Shown: positions 1,338 through 11,398 of the stretch, one piece after another
Position numbering within the stretch: the stretch's first letter is position 1
Layout of the letters: every line of letters begins with the position of its first letter
NCBI GenBank assembly: GCA_037439705.1
Contig: JBBIVP010000048.1
Coordinates: forward strand, 492 to 12,293
Direction: 5' to 3'
DNA length: 11,802 bases
DNA from: JBBIVP01 sp037439705 [NCBI: bacterium]
Lineage (GTDB): Bacteria; JBBIVP01
The notes under the pieces: generated by a model
The model's input: the letters and a program-made list of their open reading frames with translations, nothing else
Database searches by the model: none
Told to the model about the DNA's origin: nothing
Position numbers and translations under genes: made by a program

Positions 1338-1356
1338 AAAGAAAAAGGAGAAAGAA

Positions 1357-3291
1357 ATGGCATACACAATAAAACTTCTTGAGGAAATAGAAATAAAAGG
1401 CGTAAGGTTCAGAAACAGAATCTCAATGCCAGCCATGCATGTGCATTTTTCAAAAGATGGATTTGTGAATGAGAAGTATGTTGAATACTACAGAAAAAGG
1501 GCCGAGGGTGAGGTGGGACTGATTTTTGTCGGGGTGTGCAATGTGGACCCATTTTTTGATGGAATGGGCGGAATGCTTCAGCTCTGCGATGATAAGTACA
1601 TTGACGGAATGAAAAGGCTTACAGATACGGTTCACGAATACGGTTCAAGGATAATTCTTCAGATTACAGCAAGATACCTTGGATTTAAGGGGGATGCTTC
1701 TCTGTTTCCATGCGAACATATTGATGATATGATAAAATCCATAGAGGCAGGAGCAAGAAGGGCATATAAGGCAGGCTTTGATGGAGTTGAACTCATAGGT
1801 TCCGGAGGCAGTTCTTTGAGTGCTTTTATGTCAAAGACAAATCCGAGAACCGATGAGTACGGAGGGAGTTTTGAGAACAGGATGAAATTTGCAGAAAGAA
1901 GCGTTAAGGCAGCGAGGGAGGGAATTTTAGATAAACTCCTTTCCTTCAGGATGCACGGTCATGAATTTCTTGAGGGAGGTTATGAATTAAAAGAGGCAAG
2001 AGATATAGCAGTTTTACTGGAAAAATGGGGGGTTGATATAATAAACATCACAGGAGGCGGTCATACAACAAAGGTTCCTCAGATTACCCATTTTGTTCCC
2101 CCAGCGGGTTACGCATTTCTTGCAAAAAACATAAAGGATGTAGTTAACCTGCCAGTTATAGCGAGCAACCGTTTTCAGGACCCCCTGCTTGCGGACATAT
2201 ATCTCGTGAAAGGGTGGGCTGATATGATTAACTTTGCAAGGGCTCTTCATGCTGACCCATATCTTCCAAAGAAACTGAGAGAAGGAAGGTATGAAGAAAT
2301 CATTCCCTGTATAGCCTGTTCACAGGGTTGTTTTGACAGGATAGTGGAGATGAATCCGGTTATATGCCTTGTCAATCCGTTCAGCGGAAGGGAGGACGAA
2401 ATAAAAATTGAAAGGGCAAAAATTCCGAAGAAGGTGGTTGTAATAGGAGGAGGTCCTTCAGGACTTGAATGCGCAAGGATAGCCTCTTCAAAAGGACATC
2501 GTGTAGTTCTTTATGAGAGTGAGAACTTCCTTGGCGGAAACTTTTTGCTTGCATCAAGAATTCCTGAAAAGGAAGAGTTTTTGAAATTCATTCAATGGGA
2601 AAAGAGAGAGTTAGAGAAAAATGGTGTGGAAATAAAGTTAAATACACCTGCGACAGTTGAAAAAATAAAAACCGAGAATCCGGATGTAGTCGTATGTGCT
2701 ACAGGAAGTGAACCATCCCTTCCTAAAATAAAAGGTATTGATAATAAAAATGTGGCTCTGGCGATCGACCTTTTGAAAGGAAAGGTATCTGTTGGAGAGA
2801 ATGTGGTGATAATTGGTGGAGGGGCGACTGGATGCGAGGTTGCGCATTACATAGCAAAGATAGACAGTCTTCCTCCAGATGTTATGTATTTTCTTGAAAA
2901 ACACGGATACTTAAAAAGGGATGAAGTTCTTCCTTTCTGGAAAAAGAGAGAAATCACAATTCTTGAAATGCTACCAAAAATAGGAGAGGGGATTGGACGT
3001 TCAACCAGATGGAACATACTTATGGAATTAAGAAGGCTCGGCGTAAAGGTAATCACTGAAGCAAAGGTTGAAGAAATAAAAGAAAATGAGGTTATCTATG
3101 AGGTAAACGGAGAGGAAAGAAGGATAAAAACTGATACAGTGGTTATAGCTACGGGTGTTAAACCCAACTTAGAACTTTACGAAACCCTGAAGGATAATTT
3201 TAAAGAGGTTTATTTAATAGGAGATGCCAAAAAGCTTGGGGATGCGCTTCAGGCAGTTCATGATGGAGCAGAAATAGCTCTTAAAATATGA
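1357..3291 (+). CDS. OYE-family Fe-S flavoprotein oxidoreductase (2,4-dienoyl-CoA reductase type)
   Basis: 644 residues with the three-part layout of bacterial 2,4-dienoyl-CoA reductase, BaiCD/BaiH and trimethylamine dehydrogenase: an FMN TIM barrel (about 1-310), a [4Fe-4S] site (Cys318, 321, 325, 337), then FAD and NAD(P)H domains with glycine motifs VVIGGGPSGLE (361-371) and VVIIGGGATGCE (483-494). Such enzymes pass electrons from NAD(P)H through FAD and Fe-S to FMN and reduce activated C=C bonds in the cytoplasm. Against E. coli FadH, the proton-donor Tyr of GSEGYLINEF falls at Ser152 (GSGGSSLSAF), and the HTGR-type motif is replaced by LQITARY (101-107), while the active-site His is kept (His236). 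The substrate may therefore differ. The ATG at 1357 is chosen for its AAGGAG site six bases upstream. The stop overlaps kdsB (ATGA). Confidence 0.85.
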   Translation: MAYTIKLLEEIEIKGVRFRNRISMPAMHVHFSKDGFVNEKYVEYYRKRAEGEVGLIFVGVCNVDPFFDGMGGMLQLCDDKYIDGMKRLTDTVHEYGSRIILQITARYLGFKGDASLFPCEHIDDMIKSIEAGARRAYKAGFDGVELIGSGGSSLSAFMSKTNPRTDEYGGSFENRMKFAERSVKAAREGILDKLLSFRMHGHEFLEGGYELKEARDIAVLLEKWGVDIINITGGGHTTKVPQITHFVPPAGYAFLAKNIKDVVNLPVIASNRFQDPLLADIYLVKGWADMINFARALHADPYLPKKLREGRYEEIIPCIACSQGCFDRIVEMNPVICLVNPFSGREDEIKIERAKIPKKVVVIGGGPSGLECARIASSKGHRVVLYESENFLGGNFLLASRIPEKEEFLKFIQWEKRELEKNGVEIKLNTPATVEKIKTENPDVVVCATGSEPSLPKIKGIDNKNVALAIDLLKGKVSVGENVVIIGGGATGCEVAHYIAKIDSLPPDVMYFLEKHGYLKRDEVLPFWKKREITILEMLPKIGEGIGRSTRWNILMELRRLGVKVITEAKVEEIKENEVIYEVNGEERRIKTDTVVIATGVKPNLELYETLKDNFKEVYLIGDAKKLGDALQAVHDGAEIALKI

Positions 3292-4022
3292 GTGATAGGA
3301 ATAAAAAGGCGATAGTTTTTATTCCAGCAAGATATGAGTCAAAAAGGTTTGAAGGTAAACTTCTCGCAAACCTGTGCGGGAAGTCTGTGATAGAATGGGT
3401 TTATAAGGGTGCTATGGAGTCAAAAATCACTGATGAAATTTATGTGGTTACCGATTCAGAAAAAATAAAGGAGGTTGTTGAAAAATTTGGTGGTTCTGTG
3501 CTTTTCAGAAAAAAGCATTATGAGTGTGGAACCGATAGAATAGCAGATGTTGTAAAGGAAATGGATGTGGACATAGTGATAAACCTTCAGGGGGATGAGC
3601 CACTCGTTAAAGGGGAGGTTCTGGATGAACTCATAAGGACAATGAAAAACGAAGGTCCCCAAATGGCAACACTGGCAAAAAAGATAGAAAGTGAGGATGA
3701 ACTTCAGAATCCCAATGTGGTAAAGGTTGTGTGCACCAAAGATGGCTATGCCCTTTATTTTTCAAGGTCCATCATTCCATTCAATGCAACAGATTCCACA
3801 GCCCTCAAGCATATAGGAATCTATGCTTTTACTAAAGAATCCATCCTTGACTTCTCTTCCCTTCCAAAGGGAAAACTTGAAATGATTGAAAAACTTGAAC
3901 AATTGAGGGCACTTGAGGCAGGATGGAGGGTTAAGGTTCTTCTGACAGAAAATACCTTCATAGGAATTGATACTCCTGAGGATTTGAGAAGGGCTGAAGA
4001 GTATATAATGAAAAACTCATGA
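3288..4022 (+). CDS. kdsB: 3-deoxy-manno-octulosonate cytidylyltransferase (CMP-Kdo synthetase)
   Basis: 244 residues, the usual length for KdsB (about 248 in E. coli). It transfers CMP from CTP to Kdo, giving the CMP-Kdo used to build the inner core on lipid A. Visible hallmarks are the nucleotide-binding start [13 protein letters not shown] (12-24), [10 protein letters not shown] (79-88), [10 protein letters not shown] (98-107) with the metal-binding Asp, YFSRSIIPF (157-165), KHIGIYAF (174-181), [10 protein letters not shown] (203-212) and the end motif [12 protein letters not shown] (226-237). Family enzymes usually have RxPGK where this one has RFEGK, probably a tolerated variant. The start overlaps the previous stop by ATGA and its own stop overlaps the pyrG start the same way, so translation is likely coupled with the gene that supplies its CTP. 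Confidence 0.93.
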
Positions 4023-5644
4023 AGACAAAGTTCATATTTGTGACAGGTGGTGTGGTTTCTTCCATAGGAAAGGGAATAGTTTCTGCCTCCATAGGAGCGC
4101 TTCTGGAAGCAAGGGGATTGAAGGTCTCAATTATGAAGCAGGACCCGTATATAAATGTGGACGCAGGAACGATGAATCCATTTCAACACGGTGAAGTATT
4201 TGTAACAGAAGACGGAGCTGAGACCGACCTTGACCTCGGACATTACGAAAGGTTTACGAGTATGACAGCAACGAGATGGCACAATCTCACCGCAGGAAGG
4301 GTCTATTACAATGTGATAGAAAAGGAAAGGAAGGGAGAATACAAAGGGAAGACTGTTCAGGTGATTCCACATATTACAGATGAGATAAAAAATCAGGTTA
4401 TTTCCCTTGCCAGAAATGAAAAGGCAGATATTTTGATAACAGAAGTAGGTGGAAATGTTGGAGATATTGAAGGAATTGCTTTTCTTTAGGCAATAAGACA
4501 GTTGAAAAAGGACCTTAAGCCAGAAAATGTGGTTTACATTCACATAACCATTGTTCCTTATCTTGAGAAGGTTGAAGAATATAAAACGAAGCCAACCCAG
4601 CACAGCGTAATGAAACTGAGGGAGATAGGAATTCATCCGGATATAATTGTTTGCAGGTCAAAAGAAGTTTTAAAAAAGGAAATAAAAGAAAAAATTGCAC
4701 TTTTCTGCGATGTTCCTCCGGATTGTGTAATATCAGGAGTGGATGCTGAGAACGTTTATGAGGTTCCCCTTATCCTTCACGGGGAAGGACTTGATGAAAG
4801 AATAAAAGAGAAACTCAATATATGGACAAAAGAACCTGACCTTTCAAAATGGGAAGAACTTGTGTATCAGATAAAAACTGCCAATACATGTGTTACGATT
4901 GGACTGGTGGGGAAGTATGTGGATGTTGTGGATTCTTATAAAAGTCTTCATGAGGCATTGATCCACGGAGGGATAGCAAATAAATGTAAGGTTAAAATAA
5001 AATATATAGATTCTGAAGAGATTGAAAGGAATGGTCCAGACCCTATAAGCGAAGTAGATGGAATTATAATACCGGGAGGATTCGGTGAAAGGGGAATAGA
5101 AGGGAAAATTTTGACTGCAAAATATGTGCGGGAAAACGGAGTTCCATTTCTCGGAATATGTCTTGGAATGCAGGTCGCAGTAATTGAGTTTGCAAGAAAT
5201 GTTTGTCATCTGAAAAATGCCAATTCAACGGAATTCAATCCAAATACTCCTTATCCCGTTATAACCCTTCTTCCAGAACAGAGGGGAGTTGACAGAATAG
5301 GTGGGACCATGAGATTGGGAGCCTATCCCTGCATAATAAAAAACGAAAACACAAAGGCTTTCAAGGCATACAGAAAAAAGGAAATAATGGAGAGACACAG
5401 GCACAGGTATGAGGTGAATCCAGATTTTAAAAGAGTTCTTGAGAAAAAGGGAATGATTTTGAGCGGGCTTTCTCCTGATAAAAGGCTTACTGAAATCATA
5501 GAATTAAAGAGCCATTCGTGGTTTGTGGGATGCCAGTTTCATCCAGAATTCAAATCACGCCCTTTCTTCCCTCACCCTCTTTTCAGGGATTTCATAAAAA
5601 GTGCTATTGAGCACAGAAGAAAAAATGAGAAAAAGAAGAAATAG
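4019..5644 (+). CDS. pyrG: CTP synthase, interrupted by an in-frame TAG at codon 157
   Basis: 542 codons including the stop, the normal size (545 residues in E. coli). The enzyme aminates UTP to CTP with ATP and glutamine. The synthetase half shows the P-loop region [11 protein letters not shown] (10-20), [14 protein letters not shown] (39-52), [20 protein letters not shown] (57-76) and [12 protein letters not shown] (141-152), with Asp72 and Glu142 as expected metal ligands. The glutaminase half has GICLGMQ with nucleophile Cys381, [16 protein letters not shown] and CQFHPEF. Codon 157 is TAG, in the place of the conserved Glu of FLEAIRQ, and the frame continues unchanged, so a GAG-to-TAG change would explain it. 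Read strictly, this gives a 156-residue fragment (4019-4489) and a possible TTG-started fragment (4502-5644). Neither holds a full synthetase domain. The family's GGTVGDIE is GGNVGDIE here. The gene ends in TAG, and kdsA starts within its last 20 bases. Confidence 0.9.
4487..4489 (+). other. In-frame amber codon inside pyrG
   Basis: The codons run GCT TTT CTT TAG GCA ATA AGA CAG, translating as AFL-stop-AIRQ, where CTP synthases read PFLEAIRQ. One base change from GAG restores the family residue, and no frameshift is involved. No strong ribosome binding site precedes the TTG at 4502 that could restart translation. Confidence 0.92.
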
Positions 5645-6476
5645 GTTTTCCATCGGAAATATAAATGTAGGCAGTGAATTTTTTTTTATTGCGGGTCCAT
5701 GCGTTATTGAGGGGGAAAAAGAAACGATAGATTTGGCGGAAAAACTTAAAAAAATTTTTGAATCCTTTAACATCAAATTCATTTTTAAAGCATCCTTTGA
5801 CAAGGCAAACAGGACATCCATTTCTTCTTTCAGAGGTCCGGGTTTGAAAAGAGGACTTGAAATTTTAAAAATGGTAAAAGATGAATGCAAACTTCTTATT
5901 ACCACTGACATCCACACCCCCGAACAGGCTGAACCGGTGGCTGAAGTTGCCGATCTCATACAGATTCCTGCATTTTTATCAAGGCAGACAGATCTTATGA
6001 TTTCTGCTGGAATGACAGGAAGGGCTGTAAACATAAAAAAGGGGCAGTTTATGTCTCCAGGAGAGATAATAAAGGCTGTTGAAAAGGTTTACTCCACAGG
6101 AAATACCAGAGTAATGGTAACCGAAAGGGGCACATTTTTTGGATACAATGACCTTGTAGTGGATTTCAGAAATATAATAAGAATTTCTAAGGAAGAGATA
6201 CCTGTGGTTCTTGATACAACCCACATTCTTCAAAAGCCCGGGATAGGCGAGATATCCGGTGGTGAAAGGGAATTCTTTCATCCACTCTCGCTCGCAGGAA
6301 TTGTGTGCGGAGTGAACGGCTTGTTTGCTGAGGTTCATCCAGAGCCTGAAATGGCTCTGAGCGACCCAAGGACTTCCGTTGATTTAAAAACCTTGAAAAG
6401 GCTTTTAAAGGATGTAAAATCATTGCTTAATGCATTCAGGGGGAAAAATGAGAAGTTATATAAAAGCAACAGGTAG
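5625..6476 (+). CDS. kdsA: 3-deoxy-8-phosphooctulonate synthase (Kdo-8-phosphate synthase), metal-dependent type
   Basis: 283 residues from the ATG at 5625. A GTG at 5601 would add eight residues, but the ATG leaves a shorter overlap with pyrG (20 bases) and fits the family length better. It condenses phosphoenolpyruvate with arabinose-5-phosphate to make Kdo-8-phosphate. Motifs visible are IAGPCVIEGE (22-31), FKASFDKANRTS (54-65), FRGPGLKRGLEIL (69-81), TTDIHTPEQA (93-102), IQIPAFLSRQTDLM (112-125), VTERGTFFGYNDLVVDFR (165-182) and FAEVHPEPEMALSD (234-247). Cys26, His200, Glu236 and Asp247 match the four metal ligands known from the Aquifex enzyme; metal-free forms such as E. coli KdsA have Asn in place of the Cys. 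A metal-dependent class is therefore inferred. The gene ends in TAG and overlaps fabH by 29 bases. Confidence 0.92.
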   Translation: MRKRRNRFSIGNINVGSEFFFIAGPCVIEGEKETIDLAEKLKKIFESFNIKFIFKASFDKANRTSISSFRGPGLKRGLEILKMVKDECKLLITTDIHTPEQAEPVAEVADLIQIPAFLSRQTDLMISAGMTGRAVNIKKGQFMSPGEIIKAVEKVYSTGNTRVMVTERGTFFGYNDLVVDFRNIIRISKEEIPVVLDTTHILQKPGIGEISGGEREFFHPLSLAGIVCGVNGLFAEVHPEPEMALSDPRTSVDLKTLKRLLKDVKSLLNAFRGKNEKLYKSNR

Positions 6477-9560: not shown

Positions 9561-9722
9561 ATGATTAAAGGTGTGTTTGTGAGAAACTTATCCCTTGCTT
9601 CTTCATCTGCGAAGGAGGGGATAATAATAAAGGTTATGCCCGAACTTCCGTGGATATTGCCCGAATTATCACCGAATGAACTCAAATTCTTAACGAATTA
9701 TTTCAATTTCGGACATATTTAG
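9561..9722 (+). CDS. Unrecognised 53-residue ORF after pyrD
   Basis: It begins with ATG directly after the pyrD stop, with AGGG about nine bases upstream, and ends in a TAG that overlaps the stop codon of the opposing nuclease gene. The product begins MIKGVFVRNLSLAS and contains a Pro-rich stretch PELPWILPELSPNE (34-47). I recognise no family. It could be a small protein, or the first part of a gene cut off when the restriction-modification pair arrived, because base composition falls sharply just beyond it. An AT-rich hairpin (AATTC/GAATT with a 5-base loop, 9685-9699) lies inside it but is too weak to call a terminator. Confidence 0.35.
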   Translation: MIKGVFVRNLSLASSSAKEGIIIKVMPELPWILPELSPNELKFLTNYFNFGHI

Positions 9723-10336
9723 ATTTTAGGTAAATAATTTTTTAAATATTGACTCCCAATTTCTTCTAATATAAATTTGGCTACATCATAGCTGGCAGTT
9801 TTGATTACTTTTGAATTTTTCAATTTTCTGGGAATGAGAATTGTGATTTTCCACTCACTTGATATTTTCTCTATTTCTTTTGTTCCGATTGTTAAAGCAT
9901 CCCTAATTTGTTTTGTAACTAATTTCATTTCAGGATCAGCATAATAAATTCCTTTTTCACTTATAAAAAATAAAGTTGGTTCTTCCCAGCTAACTTTACC
10001 ATTGCCAAGAACATTAATTAATCGAATATCTCCGCTGCCAACAAAATTACTTTTAAGAGAGAATTTAACCCCATCGATTTGAATATCATATCTTTGTTCT
10101 TTTAACAGCTTGCATTCAAAATTCAAGGAATTTAACAAAGCAGTAAAAAGAATTTCTAACACGCCACCGACAATAAATCTATTCTCCCAGTCTGCTGTAT
10201 TGTATTCAACAATAAGTTTTTGAATTGCTTTTTTGAATTCTGAAACAATCGGCCTAAATTTTTCATTTTCAATTTTCTTTTTAATTTCTTTAAAAACAAT
10301 TCTTGCTTTCTCAAATTTTTTTATTTCTTCCACCAT
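9719..10336 (-). CDS. Probable type II restriction endonuclease
   Basis: 205 residues, typical of small type II nucleases. No specific family is recognised; the call rests on the neighbouring methyltransferase gene (16-base overlap, same strand) and on a PD-(D/E)xK-like core. That core has an acidic helix with WENRFIVGGVLEILF (50-64), then YDIQIDG with Asp84 and Asp88, then KFSLKSNF with Ser93-x-Lys95, followed by DIRLINVLG (103-111) and GIYYADPEM (129-137). The usual Glu of the ExK motif is Ser here, so a Glu elsewhere (Glu51 or Glu61) may complete the metal site, as in some swapped-site nucleases. The N-terminus (1-45) is Lys/Glu-rich and helical. Its stop overlaps that of the small ORF on the other strand. 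The product would cut unmodified DNA; the recognition site cannot be read from sequence. Confidence 0.6.
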   Translation of the reverse strand: MVEEIKKFEKARIVFKEIKKKIENEKFRPIVSEFKKAIQKLIVEYNTADWENRFIVGGVLEILFTALLNSLNFECKLLKEQRYDIQIDGVKFSLKSNFVGSGDIRLINVLGNGKVSWEEPTLFFISEKGIYYADPEMKLVTKQIRDALTIGTKEIEKISSEWKITILIPRKLKNSKVIKTASYDVAKFILEEIGSQYLKNYLPKI

Positions 10337-11166
10337 GTTAATAATTTTTTATCTTGGACAAGTCCATTTTTATTTAAATAATAATCTAAAAGATGTTGAA
10401 AGACGACTTTCCCATTAGGGTTTAAATCGCCCATTATGAAGTTTCTGTCTAACATATAAGAAACTACTCCGACCACTCCACTTCCGCATAAAGGGTCAAA
10501 AATTAAATCATTTTTGTTCGAAAAATGCTCTAAAAGACATTGAAGAAGTTTGAAGGGAAGTCTGGTTGGATATTTTGGCATATTTACTTTATAATCGCGG
10601 ATGAATTGTAGGGTAGTTAAATTAGATTCTCCATTTTGGCAGTGATGTGTAGAGCAACGATTATGAAATGTCCATTTTTCTCCTTTAGTTACCCAAAAAA
10701 TTTCATACACGTTATGAGAAGGTTTTTTCCGACAAACCGGGGCAAAATTATAAACCCAATATAGTTTCCCCCTTAGTTTTAATTCCTTAAATCGGTTAAT
10801 TCTATCATGAATAATAATGCTATTATTCCATCCCGAAAAAATTAAGGCTTGGCCATTTTCCTTTAAATTTCTATTTATGCATTCTAATAATTGTTGAATT
10901 TTCTGATCATATTCAGGTACTTTCCATTCAACATAACCATCTACAACGTTTTCAACATTTCTATGATAATTCGTAGGTTTTCCATTAAATTCTATTCCGA
11001 AGGGAGGATCAGCAATAATTAAATCTGCATTAACATTTTCCCAATCATTCATATCTTTTATGAGATATTTCTCTAGCAGTTTATTGATTATTGAGGACTC
11101 TTCCCTTAGCTTTGAGAAAGTAAATAAAGGAAGATTTTGATTTTTTATATTCTTAGGCTCAATCAT
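10321..11166 (-). CDS. DNA methyltransferase (amino-methyltransferase, beta-type motif order)
   Basis: 281 residues. The catalytic motif IV, DPPFGI (53-58), comes before the SAM-binding motif I, FDPLCGSGVVG (223-233), which is the beta-class order. DPPF suggests N6-adenine methylation, though N4-cytosine is not excluded. Other parts are IFSGWNN (109-115), SHNVYEIFWVTKGEKW (150-165) and YPTRLPFKLLQCLLEHF (199-215), the latter matching the helix before motif I. The middle part (60-80 and 120-180) probably holds target recognition, and includes a C-x2-HHC cluster (Cys171, His174, His175, Cys176) that might bind metal. It protects host DNA from the nuclease encoded just downstream. The ATG at 11166 lies three bases after the stop of an upstream OB-fold ORF, with GAGAG nearby as ribosome site. 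Base composition is lower in GC than the operon (a hand count of 10981-11040 gives 19 of 60). Confidence 0.85.
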   Translation of the reverse strand: MIEPKNIKNQNLPLFTFSKLREESSIINKLLEKYLIKDMNDWENVNADLIIADPPFGIEFNGKPTNYHRNVENVVDGYVEWKVPEYDQKIQQLLECINRNLKENGQALIFSGWNNSIIIHDRINRFKELKLRGKLYWVYNFAPVCRKKPSHNVYEIFWVTKGEKWTFHNRCSTHHCQNGESNLTTLQFIRDYKVNMPKYPTRLPFKLLQCLLEHFSNKNDLIFDPLCGSGVVGVVSYMLDRNFIMGDLNPNGKVVFQHLLDYYLNKNGLVQDKKLLTWWKK

Positions 11167-11169
11167 ATT

Positions 11170-11322
11170 TTAACTCTCATTTATTTCTTCGGTTTTCTTG
11201 CAAATGACTTTTGGGATGCTATCTTTGTTGTTAACTCGACCTTTGACCATGACGATTTTATTTTCTTGAAAAATTTGAGGTTTTTTTTCAATTACTCCCG
11301 GAAAAACAACTACTTCAATCAT
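11170..11322 (-). pseudogene. OB-fold fragment resembling the C-terminal domain of DNA polymerase III alpha
   Basis: A 50-residue product from an ATG at 11322. It opens with MIEVVVFPGVIEKK and continues with NKIVMVKGRV and PKVICKKTEEI. This pattern (IEVVVFP, then about 20 residues later IVxVKGRV, then a K-I strand) closely resembles the OB-fold near the end of bacterial DnaE. The preceding strands of the fold (usually a MAFVTLED-type segment) are missing in this frame, although the frame is open back to 11394. It is therefore likely a remnant, or a stand-alone mini OB protein now co-transcribed with the methyltransferase, whose start lies three bases downstream of its TAA. Confidence 0.45.
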
Positions 11323-11398
11323 CTCTTGAACCCTTCTGTTCCCCCTCATGAGTATCCTTGTGCATTTCCTCAAGTCTTTTATCTCCTTCATCACTCAT
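11315..11398 (-). CDS. Tiny ORF (27 codons) just upstream of the OB-fold fragment
   Basis: It starts MSDEGDKRLEEM, is very rich in charged residues, and ends in a TGA that overlaps the OB-fold ATG (ATGATTGA). A GGAGG sequence about seven bases before the ATG is a good ribosome binding site. This supports translation, but the product is too short to assign; it may be a leader peptide that couples translation into the fragment below, or the end of a broken gene. Confidence 0.25.
   Translation of the reverse strand: MSDEGDKRLEEMHKDTHEGEQKGSRDD

Follow-up and report, generated by a model that had tools for sequence, protein, structure and literature searches.

The locus analyzed here raises the question of why a reading frame for CTP synthase (PyrG), described as essential in PMC4126345, carries a TAG codon in its interior. 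The original prediction was that a single amber codon interrupts an otherwise intact pyrG, and it left the cause open among a sequence error, a recent nonsense mutation, suppression and a second pyrG. The window, that is, the whole stretch of 11,802 nucleotides that was analyzed, holds the following features around this codon.

3288..4022, + strand: kdsB, whose product uses CTP; 4-base overlap with the start of pyrG
4019..5644, + strand: pyrG, CTP synthase reading frame with one internal TAG; 541 codons, identified by profile matches
4019..4486, + strand: N-terminal 156 residues, part of the synthetase domain, including P-loop Lys18 and Glu142
4487..4489, + strand: in-frame TAG, codon 157 of 541, equivalent to Glu155 of E. 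coli CTP synthase
4490..5644, + strand: C-terminal 384 residues; remaining synthetase domain and glutaminase domain (Cys381, His508, Glu510)
4502..4504, + strand: first in-frame TTG downstream of the stop, where a restart is possible but unlikely; only AGG upstream, at a spacing of 11
5625..6476, + strand: kdsA, terminated by TAG; its probable start codon, ATG at 5625, lies within the last part of pyrG

The TAG codon and its genetic context

Twelve gene frames were drawn from the list of open reading frames in the window, and for most of them a family profile covers nearly the full length. The TAG at 4487-4489 is the sole in-frame stop across these frames, which together comprise 3632 sense codons. 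The part of pyrG before the TAG matched positions 2-155 of TIGR00337 (PyrG) with an E-value of 5.8e-78, and the part after it matched positions 157-526 with an E-value of 4.4e-160, indicating that exactly one residue is missing and that the frame is unchanged. In a profile search, the two halves matched Pfam CTP_synth_N and GATase. When aligned with the PDB sequence of the E. coli enzyme (1s1m), the N-terminal part stops at 154 and the C-terminal part begins at 156, so that the TAG stands for Glu155; in human CTP synthase 1 (5u03), the TAG corresponds to E161, the position between residues 160 and 162. The window PyrG has Lys18, Glu142 (Glu140 in E. coli), Cys381, His508 and Glu510, which we take to be the P-loop lysine, a metal ligand and the glutaminase triad, respectively. 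With regard to membership of the PyrG family, the full-length profile match, P-loop, metal ligand and glutaminase triad are thus present, and an uninterrupted reading frame is absent owing to the TAG at codon 157. These results bear out the claims that there is a single amber codon in pyrG and that both halves are conserved in the same frame. The gene is intact apart from this one codon, and TAG otherwise serves as a terminator in the window.

The 12 frames end in TAA (five), TGA (four) or TAG (three), the last being arsR, pyrG and kdsA, as had been stated. In this one window, TAG ends 3 of 12 frames and occurs once in frame, which is not what marks a TAG-recoded genome; the earlier view that genome-wide recoding is unsupported therefore stands, and we see no sign of a new genetic code. 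No tRNA was detected in the window, and no Rfam family reached its gathering score there. A stretch of 126 bases around the TAG folded like its shuffles (z of 0.02), and a 7-pair hairpin including the TAG was dropped as a candidate since folding was no better than in the shuffles.

The gene belongs to a one-strand run, kdsB-pyrG-kdsA-fabH-rimI-pyrK-pyrD, in which gene ends overlap except for a one-base gap between fabH and rimI. In the flanks of the first 80 loci compared (see below), kdsB was present in 24, kdsA in 27, and fabH and pyrK in one each; the run fabH-rimI-pyrK-pyrD was not found in these flanks. Elsewhere in the window, a long FMN/FAD oxidoreductase resembling BaiCD and bilirubin reductase (1354-3291, + strand) comes immediately after an ArsR-type regulator, with a multihaem cytochrome nearby; its match to NF041087 (E-value of 1e-134, 450 bits) is below the cut-off of 825. 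On the opposite strand are a Type II-like DNA methyltransferase (10321-11166, − strand; PADLOC MTase_II, E-value of 3.2e-27) and, overlapping it, an open reading frame of 205 residues (9719-10336, − strand) that matched nothing in Pfam or PADLOC at the cut-offs applied and is perhaps the restriction partner of the methyltransferase. A remnant like the C-terminal OB-fold end of DNA polymerase III alpha (11173-11394, − strand; NF005298, E-value of 5.5e-8), with no evident coding continuation upstream within the window, looks like a truncated gene end beside the methyltransferase.

Conservation of the site and divergence of the gene

We compared 90 loci, 89 of which cover the site (L008 does not); the genes of L081 and L082 are the same as those of L001 and L002, and L081-L087 are only 3-4 kb long. 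All 89 covering loci encode Glu at the position of the TAG (GAG in 52, GAA in 37), as do all 77 full-length aligned rows, in agreement with the family residue named previously. TAG at codon 157 was found in 0 of the 89, the nearest relatives among them being only about 60-63% identical. No stop was seen in the pyrG gene body of any of the 90 loci, as examined in the best aligned stretch of each; the three stops observed (L006, L075 and L086) lie at residues 535-537, the ordinary gene end. Likewise, some genome matches (G005, G026, G195, G201 and G644) carry one or two stops, with open frames of 537 to 825 residues; those of G005 and G026, which are the same as L006 and L086, were located at the gene end, and those of G195, G201 and G644 were taken as gene-end stops from the length of the open frame.

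The relatives reached share at most about 63% identity with the window PyrG over the whole protein. In a genome scan covering the best 80 of 588 related stretches, the best identity among the matches listed was about 60-61% in the C-terminal part, and it was at most 62% for the same part in samples of 198, 46, 8, 40, 148, 193, 247, 247 and 63 genomes taken around nine centres. Note that the two samples of 247 have identical printed genomes apart from the centre. At a strict cut-off of 1e-156, no match was obtained in the samples of 8, 40, 148, 193, 247 and 247 genomes, which does not imply the absence of pyrG. A search of viral contigs found no relative of the window pyrG. Judged by sequence identity, the relatives appear too distant to tell whether the stop is common to the species. 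A family search of one phylum, which may not be that of the window, found pyrG in 373 of 395 genomes; no internal stop appeared in the rows printed with stop counts, which cover the best-scoring part only. In that phylum, again perhaps not the window's, 363 of the 373 genomes had one pyrG match and 10 had two. The best E-value was weaker than 1e-170 in 8 of these 10, which suggests broken genes in draft assemblies rather than two copies.

We next consider the state of the gene itself. Among 137 near-invariant columns (at least 97% conserved, the site itself excluded), the window PyrG kept 135, including all 78 after the stop; the two departures, P49A and P154A, are both before it. A decaying pseudogene was accordingly rejected, as there is one stop, no frameshift and such retention of the other near-invariant columns. 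From its sequence, the window pyrG appears divergent and not decayed. In a tree built by a quick method, its end branch was 0.72 against a median of 0.25, and the tree gave no supported placement.

Within the synthetase domain (4019-4822, + strand), the window has 22 rare residues, the next highest count being 16 among the window and 77 comparison rows. The window also ranks 2 of 78 for the excess of synthetase over glutaminase divergence, an asymmetry that is partly built in because similarity to the C-terminal part decided which rows were compared. For this reason, a relaxed constraint on the synthetase domain, at which these values could hint, is kept only as a caveat. Near the stop, N146, I153 and A154 were unseen in the 89 covering loci, and across columns 143-161, stop excluded, the window was the most unusual of 78 rows (21.2 bits, next 12.6). 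Within its own gene, the same stretch ranks 13th of 526 windows of columns. A cluster of errors, or of real changes, at N146, I153, A154 and the stop was therefore set aside, since the stretch is not exceptional within a divergent gene.

Explanations for the TAG

We lean towards a one-base consensus error in a Glu codon of a draft contig as the probable origin of the TAG, the cell itself making a normal CTP synthase. Specifically, GAG at codon 157 would have been misread as TAG by one base in the assembled consensus, and the real cell would carry Glu at this codon and produce normal CTP synthase. TAG and GAG are one base apart, and GAG is the commoner Glu codon at the site. The contig is probably draft and metagenomic, and a wrong base is more likely than a new mutation. 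Of all single-base changes in the 12 frames, about 4.9% create a stop. If the consensus carries 1e-5 to 1e-4 errors per base, as assumed here, these frames should contain 0.005 to 0.05 false stops, so that a false stop is rare in one window and expected in a scan of many windows. Because the gene is not decayed, none of the covering loci shares the stop and recoding is not indicated, an error offers the most economical explanation, followed by a very recent nonsense mutation. The causes left open originally can thus be ranked, with error or very recent change favoured, a ranking that falls short of separating them by proof. On the other hand, the residues unseen elsewhere beside the stop (N146, I153 and A154) and the local unusualness could reflect real local change, and the many rare residues of the synthetase domain could hint at relaxed constraint. 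With the TAG read as an error, this pyrG is an ordinary one, its kdsB-pyrG-kdsA setting is common, and the bacterium is remote from sequenced relatives; the case then only cautions against inferring a pseudogene or recoding from an isolated codon of a draft contig. A literature search for premature stops in connection with metagenome-assembled genomes found nothing joining the two.

As a possible but tentative alternative, the TAG may be real and stem from a very recent nonsense mutation, which part of the population carries or which a second CTP synthase gene or cytidine salvage makes tolerable. The assembled sequence does read TAG, the absence of decay fits a very young change, and rare residues are unusually frequent both in the synthetase domain and in the columns around the stop. 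However, the gene stands between kdsB and kdsA, and a second pyrG is uncommon, with only one match in the 363 of 373 genomes counted above for one phylum, perhaps not the window's. Furthermore, since the frames overlap, the output of kdsA and fabH would probably be lowered too.

Readthrough of the TAG, whether by a suppressor tRNA or by leaky termination, is unlikely; it would give less CTP synthase and possibly another residue at the CTP-feedback site. Strong constraint on both sides of the TAG is consistent with readthrough, and PMC7918605 reports that purifying selection maintains in-frame stops widely across bacteria. In addition, the human CTPS E161K substitution is said in PMC8325340 to impair CTP binding and to promote CTP synthesis at high CTP, suggesting that another residue at the Glu155/E161 site could be tolerated; the equivalent E. 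coli enzyme, E155K, was purified and imaged in PMC4126345. However, the window has neither a tRNA nor an Rfam match, the RNA around the stop folds as its shuffles do, the TAG is the only one in frame in the window, and none of the 89 covering loci shares it. Moreover, PMC7918605 accepted only stops common to two or more genomes. We regard as very doubtful the more specific proposal that a leaky or suppressed amber at the CTP-feedback residue would set both the amount of enzyme and, through a non-Glu residue, its CTP sensitivity, in an uncultivated lineage where the neighbours N146, I153 and A154 have changed too. If the codon were real and suppressed, a single codon would control an essential enzyme at the very residue where its product feeds back. 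A literature search on an amber codon in pyrG found nothing, the matches being unrelated by title and abstract.

A split enzyme, in which translation ends at the TAG and restarts at the TTG at 4502 and the pieces assemble, is highly improbable: the TTG lies 12 bases past the stop, and a poor motif is no bar because Shine-Dalgarno motifs are weak at most starts checked in the window, but the restart would lose residues 157-161, of which Glu157, Arg160 and Gln161 are invariant among the 77 aligned rows and Ala158 is kept in 75 of them, and a stop in the gene body was found in none of the loci compared over their best aligned stretches. That TAG is a sense codon in the source organism is scarcely credible: past the TAG of pyrG and of kdsA the next stop comes after 10 and 12 codons, two cases that are not decisive by themselves, whereas three of the 12 frames end in TAG, the extension of arsR would be 32 residues, only one TAG is in frame among all the sense codons, and the PyrG and KdsA profiles end shortly before the TAG terminators.

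Comparison with known systems

Amber codons are decoded as pyrrolysine in mttB and its relatives, and the window pyrG resembles these genes in having an in-frame TAG. It differs from them in that the window is without a tRNA and the family residue at the site is Glu; to our knowledge, CTP synthase is not among the pyrrolysine protein families. The single stop in a constrained frame is also like the in-frame bacterial stops under purifying selection of PMC7918605; those cases were required in two or more genomes, whereas the window TAG occurs in one sequence and in 0 of the 89 covering loci. Compared with CTP synthase PyrG (TIGR00337 / NF003792; PF06418 and PF00117), the window differs by the in-frame TAG at the Glu155 equivalent and by several rare residues in the synthetase domain, and it is alike in domain order, P-loop, metal ligand, Cys-His-Glu residues and the kdsB-pyrG-kdsA setting.
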